Source of the DNA: Bacteroidota bacterium
GTDB lineage: Bacteria; Bacteroidota; Bacteroidia; Bacteroidales; NBLH01
NCBI GenBank assembly: GCA_025361565.1
Contig: JANYKN010000155.1
Location: forward strand, 1-64,000
Direction: 5' to 3'
DNA length: 64,000 bases
Shown: piece after piece, positions 3,687 through 58,822 of the stretch
Position numbering within the stretch: position 1 is the stretch's first letter
How the letters are laid out: every line of letters begins with the position of its first letter
The notes under the pieces: model-generated
Told to the model about the DNA's origin: nothing
The model's database searches: none
What the model saw: the letters and a program-made list of their open reading frames with translations, nothing else
Translations under genes and position numbers: made by a program

Positions 3687-6600
3687 ATGAGTGATCAAAC
3701 CATCAAACAAGCTGAATTCTCAGCTGTTAAATATCAGAAAATAAACAATATATCAGGTTGGCTGGTATTTTTAATTGCACTGATTACCTATTTGGCTACT
3801 ATTGAGCCTACTGCCAGTTTCTGGGATTGTGGTGAGTTTATAGCAACAGCATTTAAGCAGGAAGTTGGACACCCTCCTGGTGCACCATTATTTATGATTA
3901 TTGCAAAAGTTGCTTCTCTTTTATCCTTTGGTGATAATACAAAGGTAGCGATGATGGTCAACTCAATGTCAGCCACAGCCAGTGCCTTTACAATCCTTTT
4001 CCTTTTTTGGAGTATTACCTACTTTGCTAAAAAGCTAGTAAACAAGAAAGAGGAAGAATACACAATCGGTGATTTAATTGGTATCATTGGAAGTGGTGTG
4101 GTTGGAGCACTTGCTTATACTTATTCAGATACTTTTTGGTTCTCGGCAGTTGAAGGAGAAGTTTATGCACTATCCTCTCTTTTTACTGCAGCTGTATTTT
4201 GGGCTATTTTAAAATGGGAAAGAGTTTCGGACGAACCATATTCGAACAGATGGCTTATTTTAATTGCTTATCTGATGGGATTATCAATTGGTGTTCATTT
4301 ACTTAACCTATTGGCAATTCCTGCCATTGTTTTTGTATATTATTTTAAAAAATATAAAATTACTAAATTAGGTATTTTCTATGCTACCATGGCTTCTTTG
4401 GTCATTCTGGGATCTATTATGTATGGAATTATTCCGGGCGTTGTAAAAATTGCATCCTGGTTCGAATTGTTATTTGTAAATGGATTTGGACTCCCATTCA
4501 ATACGGGTGTACTTTTTTATATGCTGCTTCTTTTGGGACTTATTACTTGGGGAATCAGTTATACTTCCAAACATAAAAAAGTTCTTGCCAATACTCTGAT
4601 TCTTTCAGTTTCGGTAATACTTATTGGATATTCTTCATTTACCATGATTGTAATCCGAGCAGTTGCCGATACTCCAATGAATGAAAACAAACCAGATAAT
4701 GTATTTTCCCTCTTATCTTATCTCAACCGTGAACAATATGGAGACAGACCTCTGCTCTATGGCCCTTATTTTAATGCCGAAGCAGTGGAAGAACATACAA
4801 CATACACCTATCATCAAAAAAATGGGAAATACGAGCAAATACCAAATACAAACTCGGATTATGATTACGATCCTGCTTTTTGTACTATTTTCCCCAGGAT
4901 GTACAGTCACCAAGGAAGCCATATTAGCGGATATACAAGTTGGGCCAACTTAAAGGATGATAAAGCAAAGCCCACCTTTATTGAAAATATTGGTTTTTTT
5001 CTTGGATATCAAGTTAACCACATGTATATCAGATATTTTATGTGGAATTTTGCCGGAAGACAAAATGATGAACAAGGACATGGTGATCAGTTAAAAGGCA
5101 ATTGGCTTTCAGGCATTCCATTTATTGATGCTTTGCGGCTTGGGCCTCAAGATAAATTGCCAGAAAGCATGACATCCAATAAAGCAAGAAATAATTATTA
5201 TATGCTCCCTTTAATTTTGGGATTAATTGGTATCTACTTCTTATACAAACGACTACCAAAACAATTTGTTGTAGTTTTATTGCTTTTCATTCTAACAGGT
5301 TTTGCCATTTTGGTTTATCTAAACCAAACTCCTTATCAACCTAGAGAACGTGATTATGCTTATGCAGGGTCATTTTATGCGTTTGCAATTTGGATTGGGC
5401 TAGGAGTTCTGGCCATTTCGGAATGGTTGAAAAAAATTGCGCCATCAACAATTGCTGCCTCGCTGGCAACTGTATTGACTTTAGGACTTGTGCCAGGAAT
5501 TATGGCCAAAGAAAACTGGGATGATCATGACCGTTCAGGAAGATACACTGCAAGGGATTTAGCTAAGAATTACCTGAATTCCTGTGCAAAAGATGCCATT
5601 TTATTTACTTATGGTGATAATGATACTTTTCCGCTCTGGTATGTTCAGGAAGTTGAGGGATTTAGAACCGATGTAAGGGTTGTAAACTTAAGTCTTTTAG
5701 GCACAGATTGGTATATTGATCAAATGAAGAAAAAAGCTTATGATTCAGATCCTGTTCCATTTTCATATACTTCAGATAAATATGAACAGGGAAAACGCGA
5801 TGTTCTTCCAGTATTGGATCGATATAAAGAAGTTGTTTCGCTAAAAGATGTGATGGATTTTGTCGGTTCCAATGATCCAAGAGCAACAGTAGAAGCGCAG
5901 GATGGAACAAAAATGAATTATATTCCCGGACAAAATGTTGCCATATTGGTTGATTCTCTTAAAATTATCAAGTCAGGAATTGTAAAACGCGAAATGCTCG
6001 ACAGCATCGTGCCTGCCATTGTTTTTAATATCAATAAAAAATATGTGACCAAAAGTGATATGATGGTGCTTGACCTGATTGCTAACTTCAATTGGGACAG
6101 ACCTATCTATTTCGCTTCAAGCGTGGGAACTGAAAATTATATGAACTTGCAGAATTATTTTCAATTAGAAGGTTTTGCTTATCGTTTGGTTCCTTTCCAT
6201 ACTGCGTCTGTAGATGGAGATTTTGGTTATGTAAATACAGATATTCTTTATGACAACGTAATGAATAAGTTTGTTTGGGGCCGGATGAACGAGCCAGATG
6301 TTTTAATAGAAGCGTATAACCTTAGGGTTCTTTCAATTATGAAAGTGCGTGAGGTATTTGTGCGCCTTGCCGGTGCTTTAATGAAAGAAAATAAAAATGC
6401 AAAAGCAATTGAGGTTCTGGACCGAATGATAAAATTGACACCCCACAAACAAATACCATATGATTACACCATGGTGCCAATTGTTGAAATGTACTACAAA
6501 CTGGGCCAAAATGCAAAAGCCAATCAAATTATTGAAACATTGGCCAAATCATATGAAAGCGATATTGAATATTACCAAAGCCTGAAAGGCAAATATGCCG

Positions 6601-6918: not shown

Positions 6919-8400
6919 ATGAAAGCGATATCTCTAAAGACCATTTTTCTTTTCGTGGTGATTATTCTTTCCACCTCCTGCGCCACCATATTAAATGGAA
7001 GAAAGCAAGCTGTAAGGATAACGTCCTTACCGCAAGGAGCAACAGTATTTGTAAATGGAAAAGATTTGGGACTCGTTACGCCTTGTATGGCCAAATTGAG
7101 TAGAAAAGTAAAACCAAGTGCCTACAATAATAAAAATGAATACCGCTTTTTATTTACAAAAGAAGGCTATGCAAATTTCGAGGTCATTGACTACCGAAAA
7201 ATCAACCCAACTGTATATTGGAATGTTTTTACATGGCTATTTGTAATTGCCACTGTTCCTGTAGATTTTGTAACAGGTGCAGCATACAAGCATAACGATG
7301 AAGTTTTTGCCAGCCTTCAGTCATTAAGCGAGAATAAATTAGCCGAAAACAACAAAATAATTGAAGACAAGCTTCCACCAAATATTACAGTAACTGCGCC
7401 AAACCTCGATCGCGGTTTTAAACAAATAGTAAAAGATAACGTTATTGCAGTTTCTGGTAAAGCAGAAGATGAAAGTGGAATTTCTGAAGTTACCATAAAT
7501 GGAATTCAAGCCACAGTTATTGATGATGGCACATTTGAAGCCAATGTTCCTTTAGCAATGGGAAGGAATAAAATAATAATTCTTGCCAAAGACAACAAGA
7601 TGAATGTAGCCTCAGAAAGTTTTTATTTGGAACGTTCTGATGATATTCCAATCGTAAATTCAAATGAAACCAGTTCAGGTGATCTCGGATCTTTCCATGC
7701 TTTGATTATTGGTGTTCAGAATTATTCCGATTCAGCTTTCCGCGATTTGGAAAATCCTGTGAACGATGCACATAAGCTCTACAAAACGCTTACTTCAAAT
7801 TATAATTTCGATGCAGCAAACGTACTACTTCTCGAAAACCCAAAAAGAGATGAAATTACCCAAGCTCTTGAAAATGAATTCAATAAATTAACTTCAAACG
7901 ACAACTTGCTAATATTCTATGCAGGCCACGGATATTGGGATTCCAAATTTAAACAAGGCTATTGGTTGCCTGCCGATGCAATCGAAAACAACAGGGGAAC
8001 ATGGCTTTCAAATAGCACTATCCGCGATTATATGCGGGCAATACCTGCAAAACACAGTTTACTGATAACCGATGCATGTTTTGCCGGAGGCATTTTCAAT
8101 AGTCGTGATGCATTTCCCGAAGCATCAAAAGCCATCAATAAAATGTATGCCCTGCCTAGCCGAAAAGCCATGACTAGTGGCGCTATGAATCAAGTACCTG
8201 ACAAAAGTGTATTTATCGAATACCTTATTAAAAGGCTCGAAAATAATTCGGAAACATATTTATCTGCAGAACAGCTTTTTGCCAGTTTTAAAATTGCTGT
8301 AATTAATAATAGTCCAATGGATCAGGTTCCACAATATGGCGAAGTAAAAGAAACAGGCGACGAAGGTGGTGATTTTATATTTGTGAAGAAAATAAAATAA
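6919..8400 (+). CDS. Caspase-fold (peptidase C14) lipoprotein with PEGA-like and Ig-like regions
   Basis: Envelope protein with a C-terminal caspase/metacaspase domain. The N-terminus is a lipoprotein signal ending STSC near residue 21. Residues 30-60 resemble a PEGA domain (SLPQGATVFVNGK), followed by a hydrophobic segment near 95-125 ending in DFVTGAAYKH. Residues about 150-235 look like a bacterial Ig-type domain. The caspase domain starts near residue 255 (ALIIGVQNY) and has the dyad His337 in YAGHG and Cys387 in DACFAGG. Both are intact, so it is probably an active cysteine protease. The upstream TAACTTTG (6862-6869) could be a -7 box but lacks a clear -33 partner. It is transcribed alone. 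Substrate and role are unknown; caspase-fold proteins in bacteria serve cell death, defence and envelope processing. Confidence 0.9.
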   Translation: MKAISLKTIFLFVVIILSTSCATILNGRKQAVRITSLPQGATVFVNGKDLGLVTPCMAKLSRKVKPSAYNNKNEYRFLFTKEGYANFEVIDYRKINPTVYWNVFTWLFVIATVPVDFVTGAAYKHNDEVFASLQSLSENKLAENNKIIEDKLPPNITVTAPNLDRGFKQIVKDNVIAVSGKAEDESGISEVTINGIQATVIDDGTFEANVPLAMGRNKIIILAKDNKMNVASESFYLERSDDIPIVNSNETSSGDLGSFHALIIGVQNYSDSAFRDLENPVNDAHKLYKTLTSNYNFDAANVLLLENPKRDEITQALENEFNKLTSNDNLLIFYAGHGYWDSKFKQGYWLPADAIENNRGTWLSNSTIRDYMRAIPAKHSLLITDACFAGGIFNSRDAFPEASKAINKMYALPSRKAMTSGAMNQVPDKSVFIEYLIKRLENNSETYLSAEQLFASFKIAVINNSPMDQVPQYGEVKETGDEGGDFIFVKKIK

Positions 8401-29954: not shown

Positions 29955-31214
29955 ATGAGAAAAATAATTATTTGCATTACTATATTTATTATGAGTACAA
30001 TCAACAGTATATATCCACAAAACCCAAAATATCCGTTTCCGCAAAATAAAAGCTATTCTGTTGGTTCTATAAAACCACAAAATCATCCACAAACAGAATT
30101 AAACAAGGCTGTAATGCAGTTTTATAAAGTATGGAAAAATGCCTATATCCGTCATGATTGTTCCGACCCAAAGCAATATTACGTTTTAAATGATGAAGAA
30201 AATGTAAAAGGCAAGGGCTCGACAATTTGCGTTTCTGAAGGTCAAGGTTACGGTATGCAGATTATGGTTTTAATGGCAGGTTTTGATAAAGATGCAAGAA
30301 CCATTTTTAATGGAATGTTCAAATTTTCGAGAGCACATCCAAGCAGTAAAAGTCCGCACTTAATGTCGTGGAGTATACTTAAAGGCTGCATCACCAATAC
30401 TCATGACGGAAATAATTCATCAGCTACAGATGGTGATTTGGATATTGCCCTTTCGCTATTAATGGCAGACAATCAGTGGGGTAGCAATAGTGAAATAAAC
30501 TACCGCAATGAAGCTCTCAAAATATTAACTGCGATTCTTAAACACGAAATCAACTACAAGAATAATTCAGTATTACTTAGCGATGATAATGTTTTGGGCG
30601 ACGAAGATTATAATGACATCAGATCTTCTGATTTTATGCCTGCTCATTTACGGGTTTTCAATAAGTTTTATCCCAACGAGGAATGGATAAAAGTAATTGA
30701 TAACTCCTATTTGATATTCGAAAAACTACAAGCTGAATATAGTCCAAAAGTATTTCTGATACCCGATTTTATAGAATACAAATCTGGAAAATATTTGCCG
30801 GCAAAACCCAATTATCTGGAATCAAAACATGATGGTGAATATTATTACAACGCTTGCCGGGTGCCTTTTCGCTTAGCCATTGATTATTTAATATTTGGTG
30901 ATGCACGGGCAAAAAAAATATTAGACCCTTTATGCGACTGGATTCAAGAAAAAACAGTAAATAATGCTGACAAAATATGTGCAGGTTATCACTTGAACGG
31001 AGAGCCGATTGCAGGTAGAAATTATGCTGTACCTGCATTTGTTTGTCCATTTACAATTGGCTCGATGGTTAATGCTGAAAACCAGGAATGGCTAAACGAT
31101 TGTTGGAATTCAATAGCTGATTTTGAATTCAAGGATTACAAATACTTCGATAATTCAATTCAAATGTTGTCTTTATTGATCATATCAGGAAACTTTTGGT
31201 TACCCCAACCTTAA
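29955..31214 (+). CDS. Secreted GH8 glycoside hydrolase
   Basis: Family 8 glycosidase, an inverting endo-enzyme acting on beta-1,4-glucans, chitosan or related polymers. I choose the ATG at 29955 because it begins a compact signal peptide (to IYPQ), whereas the first in-frame ATG (29889) adds a hydrophilic lead. VSEGQGYGM carries the proposed acid Glu95, and ATDGDLDIAL carries the proposed Asp159. WSILKGC and the C-terminal YKYFDNSIQMLSLL end follow the family. The next gene starts 15 bases after the stop, so the two form an operon. Its partner (GH18-CE4-GT2) suggests it trims or releases the polymer that partner makes, much as GH8 BcsZ does in cellulose operons. Confidence 0.92.
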   Translation: MRKIIICITIFIMSTINSIYPQNPKYPFPQNKSYSVGSIKPQNHPQTELNKAVMQFYKVWKNAYIRHDCSDPKQYYVLNDEENVKGKGSTICVSEGQGYGMQIMVLMAGFDKDARTIFNGMFKFSRAHPSSKSPHLMSWSILKGCITNTHDGNNSSATDGDLDIALSLLMADNQWGSNSEINYRNEALKILTAILKHEINYKNNSVLLSDDNVLGDEDYNDIRSSDFMPAHLRVFNKFYPNEEWIKVIDNSYLIFEKLQAEYSPKVFLIPDFIEYKSGKYLPAKPNYLESKHDGEYYYNACRVPFRLAIDYLIFGDARAKKILDPLCDWIQEKTVNNADKICAGYHLNGEPIAGRNYAVPAFVCPFTIGSMVNAENQEWLNDCWNSIADFEFKDYKYFDNSIQMLSLLIISGNFWLPQP

Positions 31215-31228
31215 AACAAAAGAATTTC

Positions 31229-34200
31229 ATGCAACAAATATTTCAAAGTTCCAATTCATCAAGGTGGAAAAAATTCAAATGGGCATTCCAGATTTTTATT
31301 GTTTTTCTTTTGATAGGTGCCCTTTCGATACTTATTTCACTTTTACATAATCAAAAATATGATGCTAAGGATTTAGTATTTAATGAACTACAAATTCAAA
31401 ACATCAATTCCGATACCCTAAAAGAAGATGTTTCTGATTCTGAGTTAATTGCTTATGAGAAACATTTGAAGCAAGTAAGGAATACAAAAAAGAAAAATTT
31501 TTACAAATCCCCATCTACAAATCCCGGCCCGGCACAAGCATATCTTCCGGTTAGGGCGGGCTTTTATGTAAATTGGGATAATAATTCCTTCTATTCGTTG
31601 CAAAGCAATATTGGAAAATTGAACATGGTTTTGCCGGAGTGGATGTTTCAAAAGGATGCACAAGGGAATATTGATTTACAGATTGATGAAAAAGCATTAA
31701 ATATTTTGCGCAAAAACAATATTGCAATTATACCGATGCTAAGTAACAATTATGATGATAGTTGGAATGGCGATTCGTCACTACTCCTATTAAAAAATGA
31801 TTATTACGTTACTAAGCTAATTACCGGTATAAAAGATAATTTAGATAAATATCATTTTCAGGGAATAAATATCGATATGGAAAGCTTACCGGTTGCTGCG
31901 TATCCATATTTAATAGATTTTTCTAAAAAACTATATCAGGTGCTTCATCCATCAGGATATTTAATCACCATTGATGTTAACCCATTTGACAAAAACATTA
32001 ATTTTAAACAAATAGCTCAATTCTACGATTTTATTTTCCTGATGGCTTATGACGAACATTATCCTGAAAGCGAACCAGGCTGCATTTCATCTGTAGAATA
32101 TATCGAAAAATCTCTGGAAAAAGCGATGAAAATTGTTCCTTCCGAAAAATTTATCCTTTGTATAGCGGGATATGGCTATGATTGGAAACCCGGTAAAGAA
32201 GGAACTGATATTTCGTACGAAGATTTTATTTCACTGGCAAATGAATACAAAACGCCAGTTCTTTTTAGGGAAGATTATTCCGATTTATATATTGAATATA
32301 ACAACGAAAAAAACGATCCATGTGAAGCACATTGTAATGATGCCGCAAGTATTTACAATGCTATCCGTACTTCTGAAGATTACGAAACAGCTGGAGTTGC
32401 ATTATGGTATTTGGGTTGCGAGGATTATCGAATCTGGAGTTTTTATAATAAATGCTTATCAATTGATTCTCTGACAAAAAATCCTTTCGAATATAAACAA
32501 TTGGAACACATAAAGTCAATGTATTCTGTAAATTTCGATGGAAAAGGCGAAATATTGGATGTTATCACTGAACCAGAACCTGGTTCAGTAACACTGACGA
32601 TAGATACAGCTGGACAAATGATTTCAAAAGAGGAATACCAGCAGCTTCCATCGGCTTACCTCATTAAACGATTTGGAGAGGCATCCGATAAATCAATAGC
32701 AATAACATTCGACGATGGCCCTGATGAAGATTTTACTCCCCAAATTTTAGATATCCTTAAAGAAAAGAAAGTTCCGGCTACCTTTTTTGTTACTGGATTA
32801 AATATTGAACAAAACATTCCGTTAATAAGGCGGATGTATAATGAAGGGCACGAAATTGGCAACCATACATTTACTCATCCAAATCTCGAAATTTCGTCTG
32901 ATGATCGCGAAAGAATCGAACTGCGTTCAACCCGTTTATTGCTTGAGAGTATTCTGGGGCATACAACTTTACTTTTCCGGCCTCCGTATAATACCGATTC
33001 TGAACCACGGACTATTTTCCAAATAAGACCATTGGCCATAGCTGAGCAAGAGGGATATTTAACGGTAGCGTCATCAATTGATCCGAACGACTGGCAAGAA
33101 GGAGTTATTGCCGATACTATCATATCCAGGGCCATTGCACAACAGCACGAAGGGAATATTATGCTGCTGCATGATGCCGGCGGTGAACGTTCCCAAACGA
33201 TTATTGCCTTACCCCATATTATAGATTATTATCGTCAACAAGGCTACCATTTTGTTTCTATCTCAGATATAATGGGAAAAACAAGAGACCAAGTTATGCC
33301 AATTGTAAAAGGTAAAATGAGATATACTGAAACAGTTGATAATCTATTTTTTATTCTCACTTTCCTTTGGGAACATTTTCTGCATGGATTTTTTGTTGTA
33401 GCCATATTGTTAGGCATTTTTCGTATGATTAGTCTGCTTGTATTAGCAATTCTTCAACGTAAAAAATCTAAAAAAGAGAAAATTAATCACAATCCTGAAT
33501 TTCTGCCAAAAGTCAGCATCATAGTTCCCGGATATAATGAAGAGCTAAGTGCCGCACGTACAATTGAAAATTTATTAAAAAGTAATTATCCTGATTTCAA
33601 TATCTTTTTTATAGATGATGGTTCAAAAGATCACACTTTCGAAAATGTTAACAAAGCTTTTGGCAATCATCCCAAAGTAAGCGTATTTACAAAACCTAAC
33701 GGGGGAAAAGCATCTGCTTTAAACTTTGGAATTTCTAAGGCTACAGGAGAAATTTTAGTATGCATCGATGCCGATACTTTATTATTACCCGATGCCATTT
33801 CAAAAATGATTCCATTTTTTATTGATACAAAAGTAGGTGCAGTTGCTGGGAATGTTCGCGTCGGGAACACGGTTAACCTCTTAACAAATTGGCAAAAACT
33901 GGAATATACTACAAGCCAAAACTTCGATCGCCGAGCGTTTGATTATGTAAATGCTATTCTTGTTGTTCCGGGTGCAATTGGCGCTTTCCGTAAAAAAGCT
34001 ATAGACGAAATAGATGGTTTTACTACAGATACTTTGGCCGAGGATTGTGATTTAACCGTGCGTTTGCTCCGTGCCGGATATACAATCCGAACATGTAACG
34101 AAGCCATTTCACTTACCGAAGCTCCTGAAACTCTAAAAATGTTTATGAAACAAAGATTCCGATGGTCGTTTGGTATGATGCAAAGCTTTTGGAAACACCG

Positions 34201-34576
34201 CGATTTACTTTTCAGCAAGCTAAAACCAAACATGGGTTGGATTTTATTACCCAATCTACTCATTTTCGGTTTCATTATCCCGGTATTTTCACCTATTGTT
34301 GATATTCTGTTTGTTGCAGGGCTCTTTACACGTCATGCATTGTTTTACCTCCTTTTTTATGTTGCATTTTTTCTTGTTGACTGGATTGTTTCTATTATGG
34401 CATATCGATTTGATGCACAAAAATTTACAATTAATAATGCCTTGATGCTTTTTATCCAAAGGTTTGTTTATAGGCAGATATTATTTGTGGTTCTCTTAAA
34501 AGCATATTTAAAAGCCATAAAAGGAGAACTTGCAAACTGGGGAGTTTTAAAAAGGACAGGTAATGTGAAAATTTAA
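31229..34576 (+). CDS. GH18 - polysaccharide deacetylase - GT2 fusion (exopolysaccharide synthase)
   Basis: Single 1115-aa protein with three enzymatic modules. After a membrane anchor (about 16-40) a GH18-type barrel (about 85-420) has QGINIDMES with Asp216 and the catalytic Glu218 kept. A NodB/CE4 deacetylase follows: TFDDGP (Asp495/496), HTFTHP (His546 and His550), RPPY and LLHD. A membrane helix near 715-740 leads to a processive GT2 glycosyltransferase with DDG (Asp796/797), DAD (847/849), EDCD (Asp939) and QRFRW (Gln975-Trp979), then three or four membrane helices. GH18 and CE4 should face the periplasm and GT2 the cytoplasm. The set equals PgaB plus PgaC of poly-N-acetylglucosamine synthesis, which suggests a partly deacetylated amino-sugar polymer. 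I start at 31229; the frame opens at 31196 inside the GH8 gene. No outer membrane exporter is nearby. Confidence 0.93.
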   Translation: MQQIFQSSNSSRWKKFKWAFQIFIVFLLIGALSILISLLHNQKYDAKDLVFNELQIQNINSDTLKEDVSDSELIAYEKHLKQVRNTKKKNFYKSPSTNPGPAQAYLPVRAGFYVNWDNNSFYSLQSNIGKLNMVLPEWMFQKDAQGNIDLQIDEKALNILRKNNIAIIPMLSNNYDDSWNGDSSLLLLKNDYYVTKLITGIKDNLDKYHFQGINIDMESLPVAAYPYLIDFSKKLYQVLHPSGYLITIDVNPFDKNINFKQIAQFYDFIFLMAYDEHYPESEPGCISSVEYIEKSLEKAMKIVPSEKFILCIAGYGYDWKPGKEGTDISYEDFISLANEYKTPVLFREDYSDLYIEYNNEKNDPCEAHCNDAASIYNAIRTSEDYETAGVALWYLGCEDYRIWSFYNKCLSIDSLTKNPFEYKQLEHIKSMYSVNFDGKGEILDVITEPEPGSVTLTIDTAGQMISKEEYQQLPSAYLIKRFGEASDKSIAITFDDGPDEDFTPQILDILKEKKVPATFFVTGLNIEQNIPLIRRMYNEGHEIGNHTFTHPNLEISSDDRERIELRSTRLLLESILGHTTLLFRPPYNTDSEPRTIFQIRPLAIAEQEGYLTVASSIDPNDWQEGVIADTIISRAIAQQHEGNIMLLHDAGGERSQTIIALPHIIDYYRQQGYHFVSISDIMGKTRDQVMPIVKGKMRYTETVDNLFFILTFLWEHFLHGFFVVAILLGIFRMISLLVLAILQRKKSKKEKINHNPEFLPKVSIIVPGYNEELSAARTIENLLKSNYPDFNIFFIDDGSKDHTFENVNKAFGNHPKVSVFTKPNGGKASALNFGISKATGEILVCIDADTLLLPDAISKMIPFFIDTKVGAVAGNVRVGNTVNLLTNWQKLEYTTSQNFDRRAFDYVNAILVVPGAIGAFRKKAIDEIDGFTTDTLAEDCDLTVRLLRAGYTIRTCNEAISLTEAPETLKMFMKQRFRWSFGMMQSFWKHRDLLFSKLKPNMGWILLPNLLIFGFIIPVFSPIVDILFVAGLFTRHALFYLLFYVAFFLVDWIVSIMAYRFDAQKFTINNALMLFIQRFVYRQILFVVLLKAYLKAIKGELANWGVLKRTGNVKI

Positions 34577-39283: not shown

Positions 39284-39949
39284 TTAATATGCGCGGTTAT
39301 TAAAGCAACTTAAAACCTTTTTCTTATAAAGGGTAAAACCGAGTGTTGCACTAATAAAAGAGTTTCGAATGCTTGGAACATTATGTCCACCATAAATATT
39401 GACAATTCCATGATGGTAACGTATATCAAGAATAATTCGATAAAAATTTAATCCACAGCCTCCAATTACTGAAGCGTCCAAACTATTATAAGAAAATGGA
39501 AAATAAGGTGCCGACGAAATTTCAAATCCATTTTCTGTGGCATAGTCCGAACTTTCGTAATTGATCAGGTATGAACCAGCAACTCCTAAATAAAGATAAT
39601 AGTTTGCTTGTTTTCCAAAATATGCTTTTATATATGCCGGAAGTGTTAGATATTTCAACCTGCTGTCTACTTTAACCGTAGTTCCCAACCGTGGATCGTA
39701 CTGATAAAATGTTCCTTTTTGATCATAATTAAATTCAGTGCCAAAACTTAGCGTTAAGTTAATTTCGCGTTCAAAAAAGAAACCTGCTGTTATTCCAAAT
39801 TTTGGCTCATTGTCTGGAGGGAAATCTTTTCCCACATAATTGCTTATACCTGCGCCACCCTGTAAACCGATTTTATATTGCGAAAATGTGTTAAATCCGA
39901 TAAATAAATCTATTAAAAGAATTATAAATATTTTCAGATCAATTTTCAT
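39284..39949 (-). CDS. Outer membrane beta-barrel protein (PorT-like), copy A
   Basis: A 221-aa exported protein: signal peptide to TFSQ (residue 23), then alternating strands ending in aromatic residues. GLQGGAGISNYVG is the usual first strand of small outer membrane beta-barrels (OMP_b-brl / PorT group). A likely extracellular loop is at about 150-175. It lies 50 bases downstream of a similar gene on the same strand (40000-40713), as a tandem pair. Its role is probably structural or transport at the outer membrane. Confidence 0.83.
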   Translation of the reverse strand: MKIDLKIFIILLIDLFIGFNTFSQYKIGLQGGAGISNYVGKDFPPDNEPKFGITAGFFFEREINLTLSFGTEFNYDQKGTFYQYDPRLGTTVKVDSRLKYLTLPAYIKAYFGKQANYYLYLGVAGSYLINYESSDYATENGFEISSAPYFPFSYNSLDASVIGGCGLNFYRIILDIRYHHGIVNIYGGHNVPSIRNSFISATLGFTLYKKKVLSCFNNRAY

Positions 39950-39999
39950 AATTAATTTATATTCTGTTTAATAGATCAATAAAGGTAGAAACGAACATC

Positions 40000-40713
40000 T
40001 TAATTATTAATAGATGTAAAACTGATTCCAATGGTAAAAGTATTATTTCTTAGGCTCATACCAGGTATTGTACCTGAGGGATCAAGCTTGATAAAACCCA
40101 TATTATATTTAAAATCGACGAGCATAATAGGTGTATTCCTATTGCGATGCCTTCTATTTCTGCCCCTTACTGGATCGAAAAAATGAATAAACCCAAAACC
40201 AAAAGATAATCCTAAATCATATTTACTCACTTTGTTTGCAAAATCTTCATTATATCCAGTAGTATCCTTCACAAAAACATTTGCGCTTGTTTCTTCTTTT
40301 TTCCATTTCTCTTGTGCACTTATCAGATAAGCCGCATAGGGTCCTATTTTAGTATAGAAATTTGAATAGTTTTCTTTGAGGTAGATTGGTAAAACGATAT
40401 AATTGAGCTTATCGTGAACAGTTAACTTGGTTGATAAACCAATTTGAGTAAGTGTCTTTACATGATTTGCGCCTTGTTGCGAAAAACCTAATCCGGTTTC
40501 AATCGACACGATACTATTGTGGCCCAGTGGAATATCACCAAAAACATAAGCATTCAAACCCAAACGGAGTTTGTTTTCATCATAACCTGTACTTCCGCTT
40601 AAGGCAGAAGCATTAATGCCTGCCTGAAATCCCATAACGGGCTGGGAATGAGTATTGACAAAAAAAGAAAAAAGACAGAAAATGAAAAATGCAAGCCTGT
40701 ATAATGAATTCAT
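40000..40713 (-). CDS. Outer membrane beta-barrel protein (PorT-like), copy B
   Basis: A 237-aa exported protein with a signal peptide to THSQ (residue 24) and beta-barrel pattern. MGFQAGINASAL is the first strand and FTIGISF the last, which ends close to the C-terminus as barrels do. An Arg/Asn-rich loop (GRNRRHRNRN) near residue 195 is unusual. It is a distant paralogue of the next gene and probably the first gene of a two-gene unit. Confidence 0.83.
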   Translation of the reverse strand: MNSLYRLAFFIFCLFSFFVNTHSQPVMGFQAGINASALSGSTGYDENKLRLGLNAYVFGDIPLGHNSIVSIETGLGFSQQGANHVKTLTQIGLSTKLTVHDKLNYIVLPIYLKENYSNFYTKIGPYAAYLISAQEKWKKEETSANVFVKDTTGYNEDFANKVSKYDLGLSFGFGFIHFFDPVRGRNRRHRNRNTPIMLVDFKYNMGFIKLDPSGTIPGMSLRNNTFTIGISFTSINN

Positions 40714-52749: not shown

Positions 52750-52775
52750 CCAATACTTTAATTTCAATATTTTTT

Positions 52776-52800
52776 GGTCACTGAGCGCAGCCGAAGTGCC
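52776..52800. repeat. REP-like element, copy 2
   Basis: TGAGCGCAGCCGAA is the core on the plus strand; its complement matches the element at 9724-9750 except at two positions. It lies in the 84-base spacer between the nicotinamidase and vWA genes. Confidence 0.6.
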
Positions 52801-52833
52801 AATTCAAATATAAATAATTTAATACATAAACAT

Positions 52834-53535
52834 ATGAAAACTAGCAATCTCCCGAACTACGCAGATCTCGATTTCAATCTAGATTTTGCAAACTTCAATC
52901 CAGAGGATATCGAAGTGGATGAAACCATCAATGCTGTGTTTGTGATTGACACTTCTTATTCGGTTTCGAGCTATATCAATGATCTCAACCAAGCGTTCAA
53001 CGATTTTACCGATAGCATGCAATCGTCGCACATTGCCGATAAACTGTTTGTTTCCATTATTGAATTTAGTGGTGATGTAAATGTCACAAGCGGATTCCGG
53101 CCTGTCCCTTCAATCCCACAAATGGATTTTTCAAAAAAACTAGGTGGTTGGACCGCTTTGTACGATGCAGTTTATACAGGATTAAAAAACGCACTCGACT
53201 ACCGCGAAAACCTTGAAAATTCAGGAGTTGAGACAAAAACACTCTTATTTATTATTACCGATGGTGAAGATAATTCTTCAAAAAATCCTCCACAAAAGGT
53301 AAAAAGTTTGATTGATAAGCTTAGAAAAGAAGAACGAAATGCATTTTCGTTTACTACCGTTCTTTTTGGATTGGGCGATCAGGCTAACTTTAAAAAAGCC
53401 CAAAAAGATATGGGTATTGAACATTTGGCCCAAATTGGAACTTCCGGTGAAGAAATTAAAAAAATGATTGGTTTTATTTCGCAATCTATTTCATCGGTCT
53501 CAGCTGGTAAACAAGCACTTGCGCCAGTATTTTAA
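52834..53535 (+). CDS. TerY-like von Willebrand A domain protein
   Basis: Cytoplasmic vWA protein of about 233 residues. The metal-ion site (MIDAS) is complete: Asp39-x-Ser41-x-Ser43 in DTSYSVS, Thr107 in GGWTALYD, and Asp143 in ITDGEDNSS. There is no signal peptide or membrane helix, as in TerY. The first in-frame ATG (52774) runs into the REP-like repeat, so I start at 52834. It is followed by PP2C and kinase genes on the same strand. That three-gene set is the TerY-P triad known from comparative genomics of tellurium-resistance-linked stress systems. The vWA protein probably acts as the scaffold or regulated partner of the kinase and phosphatase. Confidence 0.88.
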   Translation: MKTSNLPNYADLDFNLDFANFNPEDIEVDETINAVFVIDTSYSVSSYINDLNQAFNDFTDSMQSSHIADKLFVSIIEFSGDVNVTSGFRPVPSIPQMDFSKKLGGWTALYDAVYTGLKNALDYRENLENSGVETKTLLFIITDGEDNSSKNPPQKVKSLIDKLRKEERNAFSFTTVLFGLGDQANFKKAQKDMGIEHLAQIGTSGEEIKKMIGFISQSISSVSAGKQALAPVF

Positions 53536-53673
53536 GGTATATCTGATTTTAAGGATATAGTGCACGATATCCTTAATAACATTAATTAATCATAATTTTT
53601 GATTTATTCATTCATTACAATCTTTCAGACTTGCAGAATTTATTAAATTTGTTTCGATCAATCTTACATAAAA

Positions 53674-53780
53674 TCATTTGGTCATTCAATCATTTAAGCA
53701 TTCACGCATTTAATCATTCAAATATTAAATTGCTATAATGTCTTAATATTCAATCATTCATGCATTCACTCATTCAATAT
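53674..53780. repeat. Degenerate CATT/ATTCA short repeats before the PP2C gene
   Basis: The spacer between the vWA and PP2C genes is made largely of tandem short units (variants of CATTCAATCATTCA), about ten copies of CATT or ATTCA. Units are irregular in length. Confidence 0.65.
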
Positions 53781-54567
53781 GCAAGTACATCAACTATTAA
53801 AAAGAGGTGAAAACCACAAAGATTTTTGCGAAGACTTCGTAATGGCTTATGATTTAAGCGAAAGGTATTCCATTTATGGAGTTTTTGACGGATGTTCTTC
53901 CGGACTTGAGTCACACTTTGCATCTGCGTTAATTGCTAAAATTTTCAGGGCAGAACTACAGTTTTTGGAACCAGACAGTTTCGAAAATACGAAGGAAGCT
54001 TTAAACAGAGCCATGCTGCACGGAATAGAGTCGCTTTCCAGCGTCCGCAATAATCTCTTACTCGAAACGGATGAACTACTTTCGACCATCATTGTATTTT
54101 TAGTCGATAAAATTGAAATGAGTGGAGACATTATGGCAATTGGCGATGGCTTTATTTCCATTAACGGCCAAATGCATAAAATTGAACAAAACAACCAACC
54201 TGATTATTTAGCTTATTATCTGGACCAAATAAATACATTTGAAGATTATGAAAGTTGGCTTTCCGAACACGTCCTTCAATTCAATATTCCTCAAATTATT
54301 GATGTTACCATTTCAACTGATGGCATTCATACGTTTCAAAAGCTGAACAATAAAGATTATGAACAAAATGCTCCCTATCCCTTGGATTTTCTGATAAGGG
54401 ATGAATATATGATTGACAACAAAACCATGCTTTCGAGAAAATGCAATATTCTCCGTACCAAGTTCGGATTTACCCATCAGGATGATATCGGAATTATCCG
54501 GATAAAAAACAATTCACCAAAATTGATACAAAATGGCACAATTTCAAGTTATTTCGCTGAAGGGTAA
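53779..54567 (+). CDS. PP2C-family serine/threonine phosphatase (TerY-P triad)
   Basis: A 262-aa PP2C-fold phosphatase that removes phosphate from Ser/Thr with two metal ions. Metal ligands are visible: Asp37-Gly38 in GVFDGCSSG, Asp181 in STDGI and Asp236 in HQDDIGI. The canonical DGHG is replaced by DGCSSG, as in the TerY-associated subgroup. An AIGDG strand near 118 completes the core. The gene overlaps the next by 35 bases, a sign of translational coupling with the kinase. Its likely job is to reverse phosphorylation by that kinase. Confidence 0.88.
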   Translation: MQVHQLLKRGENHKDFCEDFVMAYDLSERYSIYGVFDGCSSGLESHFASALIAKIFRAELQFLEPDSFENTKEALNRAMLHGIESLSSVRNNLLLETDELLSTIIVFLVDKIEMSGDIMAIGDGFISINGQMHKIEQNNQPDYLAYYLDQINTFEDYESWLSEHVLQFNIPQIIDVTISTDGIHTFQKLNNKDYEQNAPYPLDFLIRDEYMIDNKTMLSRKCNILRTKFGFTHQDDIGIIRIKNNSPKLIQNGTISSYFAEG

Positions 54568-56230
54568 CACAATTACACTTGATGACAATAATGAAATCCA
54601 TAGAGGTGGCGAGGGACGTATCCTTTTAATTGATGGAAACTCAAGCCAAGTAGCCAAAATTTACCTTCCAGGAATTAAAACAATAAGCGAAAACAGATTC
54701 GATCAACTACAAAAGCTTGATAAACAGCTATTTATCAAACCAATGGATTTATTGTTTCATAACAAACAAATTGTTGGTTTTACAATGGAATATGCCGGAA
54801 AAGAATACTTTCCACTTTCTTCGCTTTTCACCAAAAACTTTTGTCAGCGAAATGGAATTGACGGAAAGTACAAAATCAAAATTGCCAAGCAATTGATTGA
54901 GGCAGTTAAATCGGCACATTTCAATGGTTTTATCATCGGTGATTTAAACCAATACAATGTTTTGCTCAATTTAAAAGGAGATATCCGGTTAATTGATGTT
55001 GACTCCTATGAAACACCCGGCTACAAACATACAGGTGTGCTTTTAGACGATATCCGCGATTATTATTACCAGGGCACAGTGTCGATGAATAGCGACTATT
55101 TCGCATTATCTGTGTTGCTATTTAACCTGCTCACCTATACCCATCCTTTTAAAGGTATACACGATAAATATAAATCGCTTGCCGAAAGGATGATAAATAA
55201 GGTACCTATTTTTATCAATGACCCTTTGCTGAAAATCCCAAAATGCTACGAACCCATACAAAGTAAAGATATTCAAAGCGAATTCAGTAAACAATATTTG
55301 CATGGTGAACGCTTCTTACTTTCGATTACAAATTTATCCTTGCAAACTGTTGCGAACAAACCGGTTTTAACTCAAAAAATAGAAGAAAACGATATTACAA
55401 TCCAATTCATTCTTCAGGATAAAGATATTAGGAATGTATTTTTCAGGCTCAACCATGGATATATTCAAACCAATAAAAAATTCATTCTGTTTTCATCAAC
55501 TAACCATGGATATTTGAGTCGCAAGTTTGAACTCGATAAATCAGAATTTGAAGAGATCTATCTCGGAAATGAAAATATAATTGCCCGCAAACAAAGCAAA
55601 TTATATCTGGTTAAAAATGCAAATGAATTGACTGAAATTAAGAATTTCATACTCCCACCAGATGCTGTTTGCCACCAAATGGAAAATATTTTAATTGCAG
55701 TTGGCGATGGTCAGATGTATTGGATATATCTGGATGAAGTATATAATTCATCAATTAAAATAAAAAGGACTGAAGTATTTAGTCAGGCTATTACCCACCA
55801 TAATGGATTAATTCAAAATACAGGGGGCGTTCAGCGTATTTTTTACAATACAGGAAAAGATATTGCAAGTGTAAAAACAAATAAAGTAATTAAAAAGATT
55901 TATCAACATGGCCATACAGGTATTGTCCAGTACGTTGAAAACAAGCATATTATCAACCGCTATTTTAAAATATCAGGTCTTAAAACTGAATACTGTAACG
56001 CAAAATCGGAATCATTTCTTGAATATGCATATTTACCAGGCACTTTGGATGAAGGCTTTGTACTTGAACAAGGAGATAATAAAATAAATATCAGAAGAAC
56101 CAATGATTTTGAAATTATATCGGAGGTAAAATGCAGTTACATTTCTTCGCAAACATCGCTATTCTATACTATTTCTGGAATTATTGCCTGGGAGGACGAT
56201 GTTGTATTTTTGATAAATCAAAAGAAATGA
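54533..56230 (+). CDS. Atypical protein kinase with C-terminal beta-rich region (TerY-P triad)
   Basis: Protein kinase-fold domain (residues about 15-270) followed by about 290 residues of repeated strands that look like a beta-propeller or similar. The glycine loop is GGEGRI (25-30), the ATP lysine is Lys42 (VAK), the catalytic loop is GDLNQYN (Asp137, Asn142) in place of HRDxxxxN, and DVD (Asp155-Asp157) stands where DFG is usual. All ATP/metal residues are present, so activity is plausible. The start at 54533 overlaps the PP2C gene by 35 bases. Such kinases accompany vWA and PP2C genes in TerY-P systems. The propeller-like part may sense a ligand or bind a substrate. Its stop is 5 bases from the stop of the convergent SpoIIE gene. 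Confidence 0.87.
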   Translation: MAQFQVISLKGNTITLDDNNEIHRGGEGRILLIDGNSSQVAKIYLPGIKTISENRFDQLQKLDKQLFIKPMDLLFHNKQIVGFTMEYAGKEYFPLSSLFTKNFCQRNGIDGKYKIKIAKQLIEAVKSAHFNGFIIGDLNQYNVLLNLKGDIRLIDVDSYETPGYKHTGVLLDDIRDYYYQGTVSMNSDYFALSVLLFNLLTYTHPFKGIHDKYKSLAERMINKVPIFINDPLLKIPKCYEPIQSKDIQSEFSKQYLHGERFLLSITNLSLQTVANKPVLTQKIEENDITIQFILQDKDIRNVFFRLNHGYIQTNKKFILFSSTNHGYLSRKFELDKSEFEEIYLGNENIIARKQSKLYLVKNANELTEIKNFILPPDAVCHQMENILIAVGDGQMYWIYLDEVYNSSIKIKRTEVFSQAITHHNGLIQNTGGVQRIFYNTGKDIASVKTNKVIKKIYQHGHTGIVQYVENKHIINRYFKISGLKTEYCNAKSESFLEYAYLPGTLDEGFVLEQGDNKINIRRTNDFEIISEVKCSYISSQTSLFYTISGIIAWEDDVVFLINQKK

Positions 56231-56235
56231 GCTGA

Positions 56236-58437
56236 CTAATCCATTTTTATGCCTATGACTAGAATATCATCAATCTGTTTAAAATCGCCTTTCCAATCAT
56301 AAAACTGTTTTTGAAGGAGATCTCTTTGCTCTTCCATTGGTTTTTCATGAATCTCCATTAAAAGTTCCCGAAACCTGGTTTTGTAAAATTTCCGACCTTC
56401 TTTCCCACCAATTTGATCGGGAAATCCGTCAGTAAAAATATAAAAAACATCTCCAGGATCATATTGGATTTTATGTGGTTCAAATACTTTTTCCTTTCTT
56501 AACACACCACCTATTCCAAAATTAGCACCTTTAATTTCGTGAAACTCTCCTTTTGAAAAATAATACAGTGGGTTTCCTGCTCCGGCAAAGGATATTTGTT
56601 GTTTTTCTTTTTCAATAGAAAGCACCGCTATATCCATTCCATCTTTTATCGAGGCTGGATCATTCTGTCTTAATGTCTCAACAACTTGCTGATCAAGTTT
56701 ATAAATAATTTGCTCAGGGTCTGTAACTTGTTGAATATTAACAGTAACATTTAAAAAATTATGCCCAAGCAAAGTCATAAAAGCTCCCGGCACACCATGT
56801 CCTGTACAATCGGCAGCGACCAAAACCTGAATGTGGCTGGCATCGTCAAAATCCCATGAAGAATCAACTTCGCCGTACCAATAAAAATCGCCACTTACTA
56901 TGTCTTTTGGCTGGAAAAAAATAAAATGATCTGGAAGTGCTTCTTTCAGATAATTGGTATCGGGCAATACGGCACTTTGTAGTCTTTTTGCATAATTAAG
57001 ACTATCAGTGAGTGCCCTGTTTTTCTTATTCATTTCACCCCCTTGACGTTCAAGGATTTGGTTTATCTTAACAATTTCTTCATTTGCTACTTTCAAACTT
57101 TCAGATTGCACCGTTAACTCTTCTTTTTGCTGCTCAATTTTCGAAGTCCGATCTTTTACTATAAGCTCCAAATTGTTATTCATATAATCCATCTCTTCCG
57201 TCAATTGTTCTGTATAACTAATTGCGTCAGTAAACCTGGATGATATGATATAGGCCTGAATAAGCATGAAACCAAGGAATCCAACAGGCAGAAGAAAATA
57301 TCCATGGATTGAATATTTATTAACAATTACATCATTTATAATTGCAAGTGACAATAATGAAAGCCCTATGAAAGTTGACTGTGAACCCTCCTTTCGGAGT
57401 AAAATTGCTTTTAGAACAACAAACATCAAAAACAGGCTAATCAAAATAAAAATCCAGCCTACAAAATCGAAAATCGAAATAAAAACACTAACTGGGCTCA
57501 CTACTACAAAAATCGACATAAAAGCCGAAAAAATAATAGCTGCCCGTATAGAATAAGATCTGGATTCTTTCTCAAATAAAGATTCAACGAAGAGGAGTAA
57601 TGATAATATAGAAAGGAAATAGAACGAATATTCTAGCTTTATTTGAAGTGGCCAGCTAATATTTGGCCAAAAAAGGTAAACAATATCAAAATTGCTTGAA
57701 ACGATTACCAGACCAGCTGCAAAAAATGATAAAATAGCAAAATAAAGGGAAGATTTTAAGGATTTTCTGAATAGAAACAGAACAATATGGTACAGTCCAA
57801 TAATCAACATAATTCCCAATAACAAAAAATCAAGTCCAATTTCTTTCTTGATTTGATTCTTCATCGATTCAGTACTGGTTATCTGAATCATTTTGGGAAT
57901 CCCACCTCTAACATAGCTAAAATTAGAAACCTGAATGATTATTTCTTGCTCGGTCAGATTAGAATTGATTATTTTTTCCTGTGTTCCCCATTTTGGGATT
58001 GATTGCTCTTTGCTTGTGCCAGTTTTTCCTAATGTTGCAATTAATATACCATTTACCCAGAGTTTGTAGGATGCATCTATTCGATTAATCCGAATACCAA
58101 AAACACTATCATGGGGGTTGGTTTTAATTAATAATCGGTATGTTGCATATCCAAATTCAGTAATTTCATGCCCATTATTTATAATATTCCATGCACCTGG
58201 AACTTTAGCAAATGTTCTACTCATCTGCTTTCCAGATTTAAAATCTTCGGGTGAAAGTAATTGGTTCCAATAAAACTCCCATTGACCTGAAAGATCAACT
58301 GAGCCTTTTTCACTTATCGAATTATTACTGATATCCAAAAACCCATTCACAGCCTTTTGACCTGACGCTTTGAAATTTAAAAAATTCAAAGCAGCAAGCA
58401 ATATTACAAAAGGCAATATTTTTCGAACAGGATTCAT
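56236..58437 (-). CDS. 7TMR-DISM membrane sensor with SpoIIE phosphatase
   Basis: Membrane signal protein. Residues 1-27 are a signal peptide or anchor, then a periplasmic jelly-roll sensor of the 7TMR-DISM extracellular type (about 30-190; GQWEFYWNQLL and VPGAWN). Seven membrane helices follow (about 205-405), a coiled coil (about 415-475), and a SpoIIE/PP2C-like serine phosphatase at the C-terminus (about 490-730) with FFQPKDIVSGDFYWY, ADCTGHGVPGAFM, AGAGNPLYY and FTDGFPDQ motifs, all intact. Its usual target is a phosphorylated anti-anti-sigma factor; none is encoded nearby. The start at 58437 is preferred over 58455 because it gives a compact signal. It is convergent with the TerY-P kinase gene; no terminator fits between them. 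Confidence 0.92.
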   Translation of the reverse strand: MNPVRKILPFVILLAALNFLNFKASGQKAVNGFLDISNNSISEKGSVDLSGQWEFYWNQLLSPEDFKSGKQMSRTFAKVPGAWNIINNGHEITEFGYATYRLLIKTNPHDSVFGIRINRIDASYKLWVNGILIATLGKTGTSKEQSIPKWGTQEKIINSNLTEQEIIIQVSNFSYVRGGIPKMIQITSTESMKNQIKKEIGLDFLLLGIMLIIGLYHIVLFLFRKSLKSSLYFAILSFFAAGLVIVSSNFDIVYLFWPNISWPLQIKLEYSFYFLSILSLLLFVESLFEKESRSYSIRAAIIFSAFMSIFVVVSPVSVFISIFDFVGWIFILISLFLMFVVLKAILLRKEGSQSTFIGLSLLSLAIINDVIVNKYSIHGYFLLPVGFLGFMLIQAYIISSRFTDAISYTEQLTEEMDYMNNNLELIVKDRTSKIEQQKEELTVQSESLKVANEEIVKINQILERQGGEMNKKNRALTDSLNYAKRLQSAVLPDTNYLKEALPDHFIFFQPKDIVSGDFYWYGEVDSSWDFDDASHIQVLVAADCTGHGVPGAFMTLLGHNFLNVTVNIQQVTDPEQIIYKLDQQVVETLRQNDPASIKDGMDIAVLSIEKEKQQISFAGAGNPLYYFSKGEFHEIKGANFGIGGVLRKEKVFEPHKIQYDPGDVFYIFTDGFPDQIGGKEGRKFYKTRFRELLMEIHEKPMEEQRDLLQKQFYDWKGDFKQIDDILVIGIKMD

Positions 58438-58822
58438 CGATACCAAAATTAACATTTAATTCGTAAATATAGAATATCTATAAGTTTTTTTATTGTAGTT
58501 CTCTTATTTTATCTCAAATAAAATTCTGTTATCTAACTTTTTAAACAATTGATTTATGATACCTAAAGTTTACTAATTATCATATCGTGGAGCAAATATA
58601 CTGCCAGCTTATTTCATTATTAAAGCATTTTAAAAAATAGTAAATATCATATAAACTTTATATTAATTAACACAAGTTTTACAAATTTTGTCAAATGATA
58701 TAGTCCTCAGTCTAATTCTCATAAATTTGGATTAATGGTATTTTATTCGAGAATAGTTTACAATTAAATATTTTGCTTACTTAAAGAAAAAACCTTCCAA
58801 ATTCAAGTTCCTAAATAATTAT
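58438..58822. other. Gene-free interval beside the DNA methylase gene
   Basis: About 385 bases, strongly AT-rich. No restriction endonuclease remnant, tRNA or repeat was seen. Confidence 0.55.

Follow-up and report, generated by a model that had tools for sequence, protein, structure and literature searches.

Can a bacterium place the synthesis, the deacetylation and the cutting of one extracellular polysaccharide on a single polypeptide? The question is raised by a locus of a Bacteroidota bacterium (Bacteroidales; NBLH01), which we analysed in a window of 64,000 nucleotides (nt), namely positions 1 to 64,000 of the forward strand of contig JANYKN010000155.1 in assembly GCA_025361565.1 (6.76 Mb, 98% complete). 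A forward-strand gene at 31229–34576 (ATG at 31229, stop ending at 34576), present as a single copy in the source genome, encodes a protein of 1115 residues, hereafter the fusion, in which a GH18 glycoside hydrolase, a NodB-type (CE4) deacetylase and a family 2 glycosyltransferase (GT2) follow one another, and a gene for a GH8 hydrolase lies directly upstream. Deacetylated polymers of aminosugars give biofilms their cohesion and protect the cells. In the Pga, Ica and Mat systems it takes several proteins to make them, whereas here the modules for synthesis, deacetylation and cutting stand on one chain, in five phyla. A preliminary description, made from the sequence alone, had proposed an aminosugar polymer for this locus, a reasonable idea, as such a polymer is the natural product of modules of this kind. 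We propose that the fusion would by itself synthesise, in the inner membrane, an N-acetylglucosamine (GlcNAc) polymer from which part of the acetyl groups is removed, and consider it very likely that a polymer of the GlcNAc type is made and deacetylated by this protein.

Architecture of the Fusion Protein

Pfam scans covered all 42 open reading frames (ORFs) of at least 150 residues in the window, five of them without a match, as well as eight of the nine smaller ORFs (90–149 residues) between 24000 and 42000, the interval to which the scan of small ORFs was confined. The fusion, scanned from residue 2, matches Glyco_hydro_18 (E 6.9e-13), Polysacc_deac_1 (E 3.5e-35) and Glyco_tranf_2_3 (E 1e-33). 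It begins with a transmembrane segment at residues 15–43 (31271–31357; hydropathy, with a model helix at 10–39), followed by a GH18 barrel at residues ~106–414 (31544–32470), delimited by structure alignment and conservation and carrying D216, E218, Y274 and W393. Membership of GH18 is borne out by the PF00704 score (49.4 bits, cut-off 29.6), by the TIM-barrel fold and by D216 and E218, the latter, already singled out in the preliminary description, lying within FQGINIDME from residue 210; LMAYD follows at 271 and LWYLG at 392. Two Asp of the classical motif DxxDxDxE are replaced in the fusion, by Q and N, of which N is frequent at the second position in relatives. The barrel aligns with chitinase 5jh8 (Z 35.5, rmsd (root-mean-square deviation) 1.9, 302 aligned residues), practically tied with the spore-cortex enzyme SleL (4s3k, Z 34.5), and its sequence neighbours in the PDB include chitinases, SleL and YdhD.

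A linker region of beta-strands in the model (residues 431–482, 32519–32674) leads to the NodB/CE4 deacetylase at residues ~483–683 (32675–33277), delimited by Pfam, motifs and conservation. All five CE4 motifs, as defined in PMC5855634 (TFDD, H(S/T)xxH, RxPY, DxxDW and LxH), are present, as TFDDGP at 493, HTFTH at 546, RPPY at 584, DPNDW at 618 and LLHD at 646, and the nearest sequences in the PDB are peptidoglycan deacetylases. One or more transmembrane segments at residues 706–745 (33344–33463; hydropathy, model helix 700–749) bring the chain back to the cytoplasm, where the GT2 catalytic domain occupies residues ~759–985 (33503–34183; Pfam, motifs and structure alignment), with DDG at 796, DAD at 847, AEDCD at 937 and QRFRW at 975. 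Together with the membrane helices, these D, DxD, TED-like and QxxRW motifs support a place among the processive GT2 enzymes, of which QRxRW is a mark, and the metal residues and GT2 motifs claimed in the preliminary description are all in place. Further helices lie at residues ~1001–1098 (34229–34522; model, hydropathy). Residues 717–1115, comprising the GT2 domain and its helices, align with hyaluronan synthase, a stand-alone extruding enzyme, over 377 residues (Z 33.5, rmsd 3.0).

The membrane segments at 15–43 and 706–745 and the several after 1001 would fit a topology with GH18 and NodB outside the membrane and GT2 inside. A structural model had been suggested as a means of placing the domains; the AlphaFold2 model, built from 27 aligned sequences, delivers the modules and leaves their placement untrustworthy, since the mean predicted local distance difference test score (82.6) makes most of each module confident, but the predicted template modelling score (pTM) is 0.51. 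Foldseek and VIA, run on the full-length model, listed mainly GH18 chains and hyaluronan synthases, and the absence of PgaC and NodC structures from the matches listed carries no weight.

Conservation and Distribution of the Fusion

Residues were tallied in 65 usable sequences out of 67, a cut one (L026) and a broken one (L027, at 4784–6299, where a change of frame or a deletion interrupts the gene of that metagenome-assembled genome (MAG)) being left out and two truncated ones (L008 and L019) being kept. In all 65, the NodB residues D495, D496, H546, H550, R584, D621, W622 and H648 and the GT2 residues D797, D847, D849, E938, D939, Q975, R976, R978 and W979 are identical, and NodB D618 is kept in 64; the ORFs had been chosen by the patterns FDDGP and QxxRW, so that the conservation of D495, D496, Q975, R978 and W979 is partly given. 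GH18 E218 is kept in 60 of the 64 sequences with the site, the others having Asp (three Bacteroidota) or Ser (Sulfitobacter), with NodB and GT2 intact (L131, L159, L165 and L171). Because the NodB and GT2 residues are all but invariant and E218 is replaced more often, synthesis and deacetylation appear to form a fixed core, and the GH18 cut seems to have been given up in some lineages. One genome with a replaced Glu (G396, L159) has a tail-less GH8 elsewhere, and in Sulfitobacter (L131, 11000–13537) the fusion gene, with its degenerate GH18, overlaps a gene of the DUF3131 family, whose product might be a hydrolase standing in for it.

Near-full-length relatives occur in Bacteroidota, Bacillota, Acidobacteriota, Alphaproteobacteria and Deinococcota, and such full-length relatives in many genomes rule out a chance or misassembled fusion. 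A scan of one contig collection gave 30 loci, mostly in Bacteroidota MAGs, including nearly full-length matches at 35–38% identity in Bacillus, Geobacillus and two Acidobacteria. Plasmid records, 20 of whose 1292 matching entries reach a query coverage of at least 80%, add Prevotella, Deinococcus, Sphingomonas, Novosphingobium, Sphingobium and Sulfitobacter. Even genome samples, in which several genomes are incomplete, contain the fusion (E <= 1e-100) in 13 of 295 genomes of the order and in 22 of 395 of the phylum. The distribution is patchy, since even in the source family set, which consists of one genus, a single genome of seven has it; the six others (G001–G006, completeness 59–99%) have no fusion at E 1e-100, and three of them carry GH8 enzymes with a type IX secretion tail, which is why the GH8-fusion pair of the window may be acquired or relict. 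Among the matches listed in a search of the open-licence literature, no study of a GH18-NodB-GT2 protein was found, which is weak evidence, as most subscription papers fall outside that scope.

The Adjoining GH8 Enzyme

The upstream gene (29955–31214, forward strand) encodes a GH8 hydrolase of 419 residues with an N-terminal hydrophobic, signal-like segment, assigned by the GH8 profile (PF01270, E 3.8e-28) and by its SEG acid motif. Glu95 within SEGQGYGM (30237–30239) is the putative general acid, with Glu in all 23 aligned GH8 rows, and Glu289 (30819–30821) the putative general base, reportedly the role of the equivalent residue in Adachi 2004. Glu289 aligns with a Glu of the chitosanase chain 7cju, at the spacing seen in that chain, and is Glu in 21 of 23 rows, E. 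coli BcsZ and L095 having no Glu at this position. The best PDB chains are 7cju (E 1.3e-85) and 1v5c (E 1.4e-85), both named chitosanase, with CelA far behind (5e-36), so that by its sequence the enzyme resembles a chitosanase, a likeness on which the preliminary description did not draw.

Between the GH8 stop and the ATG of the fusion there are 14 nt (31215–31228), one fewer than the 15 bases of the preliminary description, whose report of adjacency stands. Its proposal to seek the pair in other genomes proved fruitful. In the order sample, 13 genomes have the fusion, 14 a GH8 (E <= 1e-40) and four both, adjacent and on the same strand in all four (Fisher p 0.0018), and locus L001 is a fifth adjacent pair; the gaps at these five loci are 14, 14, 13, 15 and 7 nt. 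In the phylum sample, the fusion is found in 22 genomes, a GH8 in four and both in three, two of these with the genes on different contigs (Fisher p 0.0006). Shared ancestry is ignored in these tests, as in that on MprF below. The five adjacent GH8s and the unpaired G173 form one clade (96/98, in a tree whose bootstrap had not settled), and in both the GH8 and the GT2 trees the window groups with L001 and G085 with G199, with G069 outside. The pair is thus a conserved sub-system in one lineage, in which the two genes are probably co-transcribed.

The paired enzymes also differ from their solo relatives in how they end. The window GH8 has no Por_Secre_tail match and no residues beyond the catalytic domain. 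In all seven fusion-bearing genomes compared, the GH8s end within six residues of that domain and have no Por_Secre_tail, whereas an extra tail is found in 10 of 12 GH8s from genomes without the fusion (Fisher p 0.0007; G253, cut at a contig end, was dropped). All ten extra tails match Por_Secre_tail at E <= 0.001, seven of them above the cut-off. Lacking the type IX tail, the paired GH8 probably stays in the cell envelope, probably in the periplasm, while its solo relatives would mostly be exported, and such retention would suit an enzyme acting on the polymer that the cell itself makes.

Nature of the Polymer

In the explanation favoured here, the cytoplasmic GT2 domain would polymerise UDP-GlcNAc and pass the product out through its own helices, NodB, in the periplasm, would take acetyl groups off the chain as it emerges, and the GH18 domain, tethered to the same molecule, would cut where GlcNAc remains, as GH18 chemistry requires an acetamido (N-acetyl) group at the cut site. 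The GH8 would then trim deacetylated stretches beyond the reach of GH18, like BcsZ beside cellulose synthase, so that the two hydrolases would be complementary, one cutting acetylated and the other deacetylated stretches, and the end product would be a cationic surface polymer. The preliminary description had likewise supposed that one molecule might extrude, deacetylate and cut. The polymer would be chitosan-like, as it is most likely beta-1,4-linked and partly deacetylated; NodB, GH18 and GH8 would all point to beta-1,4 aminosugars, and for this linkage, which we infer along with the substrate, the chances are even or slightly better. That the GH8 is a trimming partner is reasonably likely, and the explanation as a whole, with a chitosan-like polymer trimmed by both hydrolases, is about evenly poised between right and wrong. 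Were the linkage beta-1,4, bacteria would have in the fusion a compact way of making chitosan, and GH18 and GH8 together would be a built-in means of setting chain length by the acetylation pattern.

Several observations weigh against this explanation. Among the PDB chains matched by the GH8, the third best (5xd0) bears the name glucanase. Fusions without a close GH8 are in the majority (9 of 13 in the order and 19 of 22 in the phylum sample), and unpaired fusions (L002, L003, L006 and L013) separate the window group from the paired G069 in the GT2 tree, so that the pairing arose or disappeared on more than one occasion. Among unpaired GH8s, the closest one (G173, 73%) is followed by no fusion within 600 nt, and its genome contains none at E 1e-100. 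GH18 cutting would be dispensable in some relatives, in which the acid is replaced (4 of 64) or Y274 is Ile (5 of 64), and no outer-membrane exporter is recognised. Furthermore, the GT2 scores higher with the PgaC than with the NodC model, the PgaC/IcaA equivalog TIGR03937 giving its best NCBIfam score (198.9 bits) and the NodC equivalog TIGR04242 100.1 bits, with neither cut-off (422.3 and 550, respectively) being reached.

This last score brings in the main rival, a beta-1,6-linked poly-N-acetylglucosamine (PNAG) of the kind made with MatB or PgaC, which NodB would deacetylate in part and for which GH18 and GH8 would serve in processing or in opening the wall. It is also favoured by MatB of Streptomyces, which shares the NodB-GT2 arrangement and whose product is reported to be PNAG on the basis of antibody, dispersin B and periodate (PMC5972031), a precedent that speaks for the PNAG view of the preliminary description; and in a GT2 tree of 36 sequences from the available loci, the fusions group with NodB-GT2 proteins of Streptomyces and Kocuria (99/97). 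However, the PgaC score is under half of the cut-off, and the fusion clade branches apart from PgaC/IcaA (98/94) and from NodC, in a tree with long branches (BcsA, Methylocystis GT2 and Enterococcus GT2). As it contains no MatB sequence, the tree does not decide the linkage, and its actinobacterial members are not established as MatB.

The deacetylase also lacks the markers of PNAG enzymes. PNAG deacetylases of CE4 are reported to have four residues between the metal His and a displaced Arg, a criterion that its source terms tentative (PMC5855634). In the fusion (HTFTH, RPPY), three residues separate them in 65 of 65 sequences and R584 of RxPY is kept, in contrast to four residues in E. coli PgaB (HTWNSH), which would place it outside the PNAG-deacetylase subfamily. 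This criterion is not decisive, which is a further point against the beta-1,4 reading, because MatB is described as having a CE4 domain like that of chitin deacetylases and yet making PNAG (PMC5972031). Conversely, PgaC homology alone would not seem to fix the linkage, since the polymer of Citrobacter BfpC, encoded with pgaABCD-like genes, is reported to be degraded by chitinase and chitosanase (PMC6414854). The hydrolase of PgaB belongs to GH153, without the GH18 acid motif, according to PMC5933820; that of the fusion matches PF00704 with the GH18 acid and falls outside GH153. The likening of the fusion to PgaB and PgaC in the preliminary description therefore holds for a single protein with an extracytoplasmic GH18 and NodB half, flanked by the two helices at 10–39 and 700–749, and a processive-type GT2 half, and fails for its hydrolase, its NodB markers and its GT2, which stands below the PgaC cut-off on a separate branch. 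No member of GH18 or GH8 is known to us to cleave beta-1,6-GlcNAc, no search for one having been made. On this balance, we regard PNAG as rather unlikely.

The similarity of the barrel to SleL, practically level with that to chitinase, and the presence of YdhD and of peptidoglycan deacetylases among the neighbours of the two outer domains, would also suit an improbable alternative, in which a SleL/YdhD-like GH18 and a PgdA-like NodB open or protect peptidoglycan where the GT2 product exits, the GH8 being a foraging chitosanase. The adjacency of the GH8 at five loci, its shared clade and the missing tail in fusion genomes speak against such foraging. Finally, it is quite unlikely that the product of the GT2 is a short oligosaccharide or a different aminosugar polymer, such as one of N-acetylmannosamine, whose length the deacetylase and hydrolases set: NodC is also a relative, and the model has few membrane helices (cellulose synthase has more), but QRxRW is kept throughout the tally.

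Export, Regulation and Gene Neighbourhood

The preliminary description had seen no exporter, PgaD or cyclic di-GMP (c-di-GMP) protein nearby, with which the Pfam scans of the window ORFs agree. No polysaccharide exporter was found among the 42 ORFs, and the nearest outer-membrane proteins are two small OMP_b-brl_2 barrels at 39284–40713. A genome-wide search for PgaA gave at best 34.5 bits against a cut-off of 366.65, which was exceeded in one of 14 control genomes. PgaD, a small protein, was absent from the Pfam scans of window ORFs, and no genome-wide search was made for it. GGDEF had no match in the 98%-complete assembly, the control being positive in eight of 14 genomes, so that control by c-di-GMP is unlikely in the source genome and was rejected as a candidate; PilZ was not searched for. 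In Deinococcus, a diguanylate cyclase gene adjoins the fusion homologue.

The neighbourhood of the fusion gives no hint of a larger conserved exopolysaccharide operon, which is ruled out, as the recurring neighbours in Paludibacter-like loci have mostly unrelated functions (tRNA methyltransferase, GNAT-like protein, flavoprotein oxidoreductase, Dabb, SSB, CstA and a ParA-type ATPase). Ten such neighbours were scanned, of which c4 had no Pfam match, one was DUF4337 and c8 was an ABC-transport auxiliary protein (ABC_transp_aux, DUF7088). The gene for this auxiliary protein is the next one after the fusion in six Paludibacter-like loci (L006, 9457–11142; L011; L012; L013; L017; L026). In one genome (G223; L150, 11940–15038), the gene immediately preceding the fusion, in the same orientation, encodes an AcrB-family transporter of the resistance-nodulation-division type. 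An unrecognised partner gene is possible, other genomes having been viewed by the starts of 14 neighbour proteins. Elsewhere in the window, 52774–58455 holds a cluster of VWA, PP2C phosphatase, protein kinase and 7TMR-SpoIIE genes, possibly a signalling module, and 6919–8400 encodes a caspase-domain (peptidase C14) protein with Glucodextran_B and PEGA domains.

A different association concerns mprF, the gene for lysyl-phosphatidylglycerol synthase, which lies within ~4 kb of the fusion in seven of 61 flanked loci, in Bacteroidota and Sphingomonadaceae (L067, 1296–5365; L069, 7903–10497; L023, 2331–5671; L142, 9111–12456; L129, 6807–16580; L168; L169). An AcvB/VirJ-like gene accompanies it in four of the seven; in Sphingobium, there is an overlap between the fusion gene and one of the VirJ family, after which mprF follows. 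In the phylum sample, MprF occurs in 13 of 395 genomes, that is, in seven of 22 with the fusion and six of 373 without it (p 8e-7, ancestry uncorrected). The source genome has MprF on a different contig from the fusion, and in G619 (C9, 378017–380510) the mprF adjoining the fusion gave a match in two parts, each in its own reading frame. A shared programme for a cationic envelope would explain the link. In its widest form, our proposal would be of a one-protein chitosan synthase in at least five phyla, to which the Bacteroidales GH8 adds a complementary cut, the hydrolases reading the acetylation pattern and setting chain length within a cationic-envelope programme that includes the turnover of lysyl-phosphatidylglycerol, in view of the mprF genes near the fusion in two phyla; this broad picture is tentative, and we hold it to be somewhat doubtful.

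Comparison with Known Polymer Systems

The chitosanase chains 1v5c and 7cju, which we take to come from Bacillus sp. K17, and the glucanase 5xd0, presumably from Paenibacillus, align with nearly the whole GH8 (E 1e-83 to 1e-85), including SEGQGYGM and Glu289; the window GH8 differs from them in that its gene adjoins a synthase gene. In this respect the locus is like the bcs genes of E. coli, where the gene of the GH8 enzyme BcsZ stands beside that of a processive GT2, but the window GH8 scores 45.8 bits against the BcsZ cut-off of 299 (NF008305), which rules it out as a BcsZ cellulase, and its nearest relatives are chitosanases. Listeria PssZ was dropped as a GH8 precedent, since it is classed as a member of GH126 (PMC7479077).

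NodB of the NodBC system shares the HxxxH and RxPY markers with the deacetylase of the fusion, and NodC is a relative of its GT2. NodC-type GT2 enzymes and NodB act on beta-1,4-GlcNAc. Unlike the fusion, they are encoded by separate genes and yield oligomers, and the GT2 belongs to a different clade. Neighbouring GT2, deacetylase and GH18 genes of Paenibacillus were ruled out as a split form of the fusion, as this GT2 groups with NodC. The PgaABCD and IcaADBC systems are similar overall, with a GT2 synthase, a deacetylase and, in PgaB, a hydrolase; they differ in distributing these over separate proteins, and in the PNAG-type His spacing and the GH153 domain of PgaB. In Kocuria, the NodB-GT2 gene adjoins a gene annotated as a chitinase, whose GH18 match is below the cut-off (22.9 against 29.6 bits).

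The nearest described precedent would be MatB of Streptomyces, compared here by description rather than by sequence. As reported, it carries NodB (CE4) and GT2 in the same order on one membrane-spanning chain, and the closest relatives of its CE4 domain are PgdA, chitin deacetylase and NodB (PMC5972031). It is unlike the fusion in having two functional domains and no GH18, the relevant portions of that source mentioning no GH8 partner, and in requiring MatA as well for PNAG, the product being reported as beta-1,6-linked (PMC5972031). By its domains, the fusion may thus be described as MatB-like, a synthase-deacetylase that also contains a GH18 module, to which one lineage adds a GH8 resembling chitosanases.

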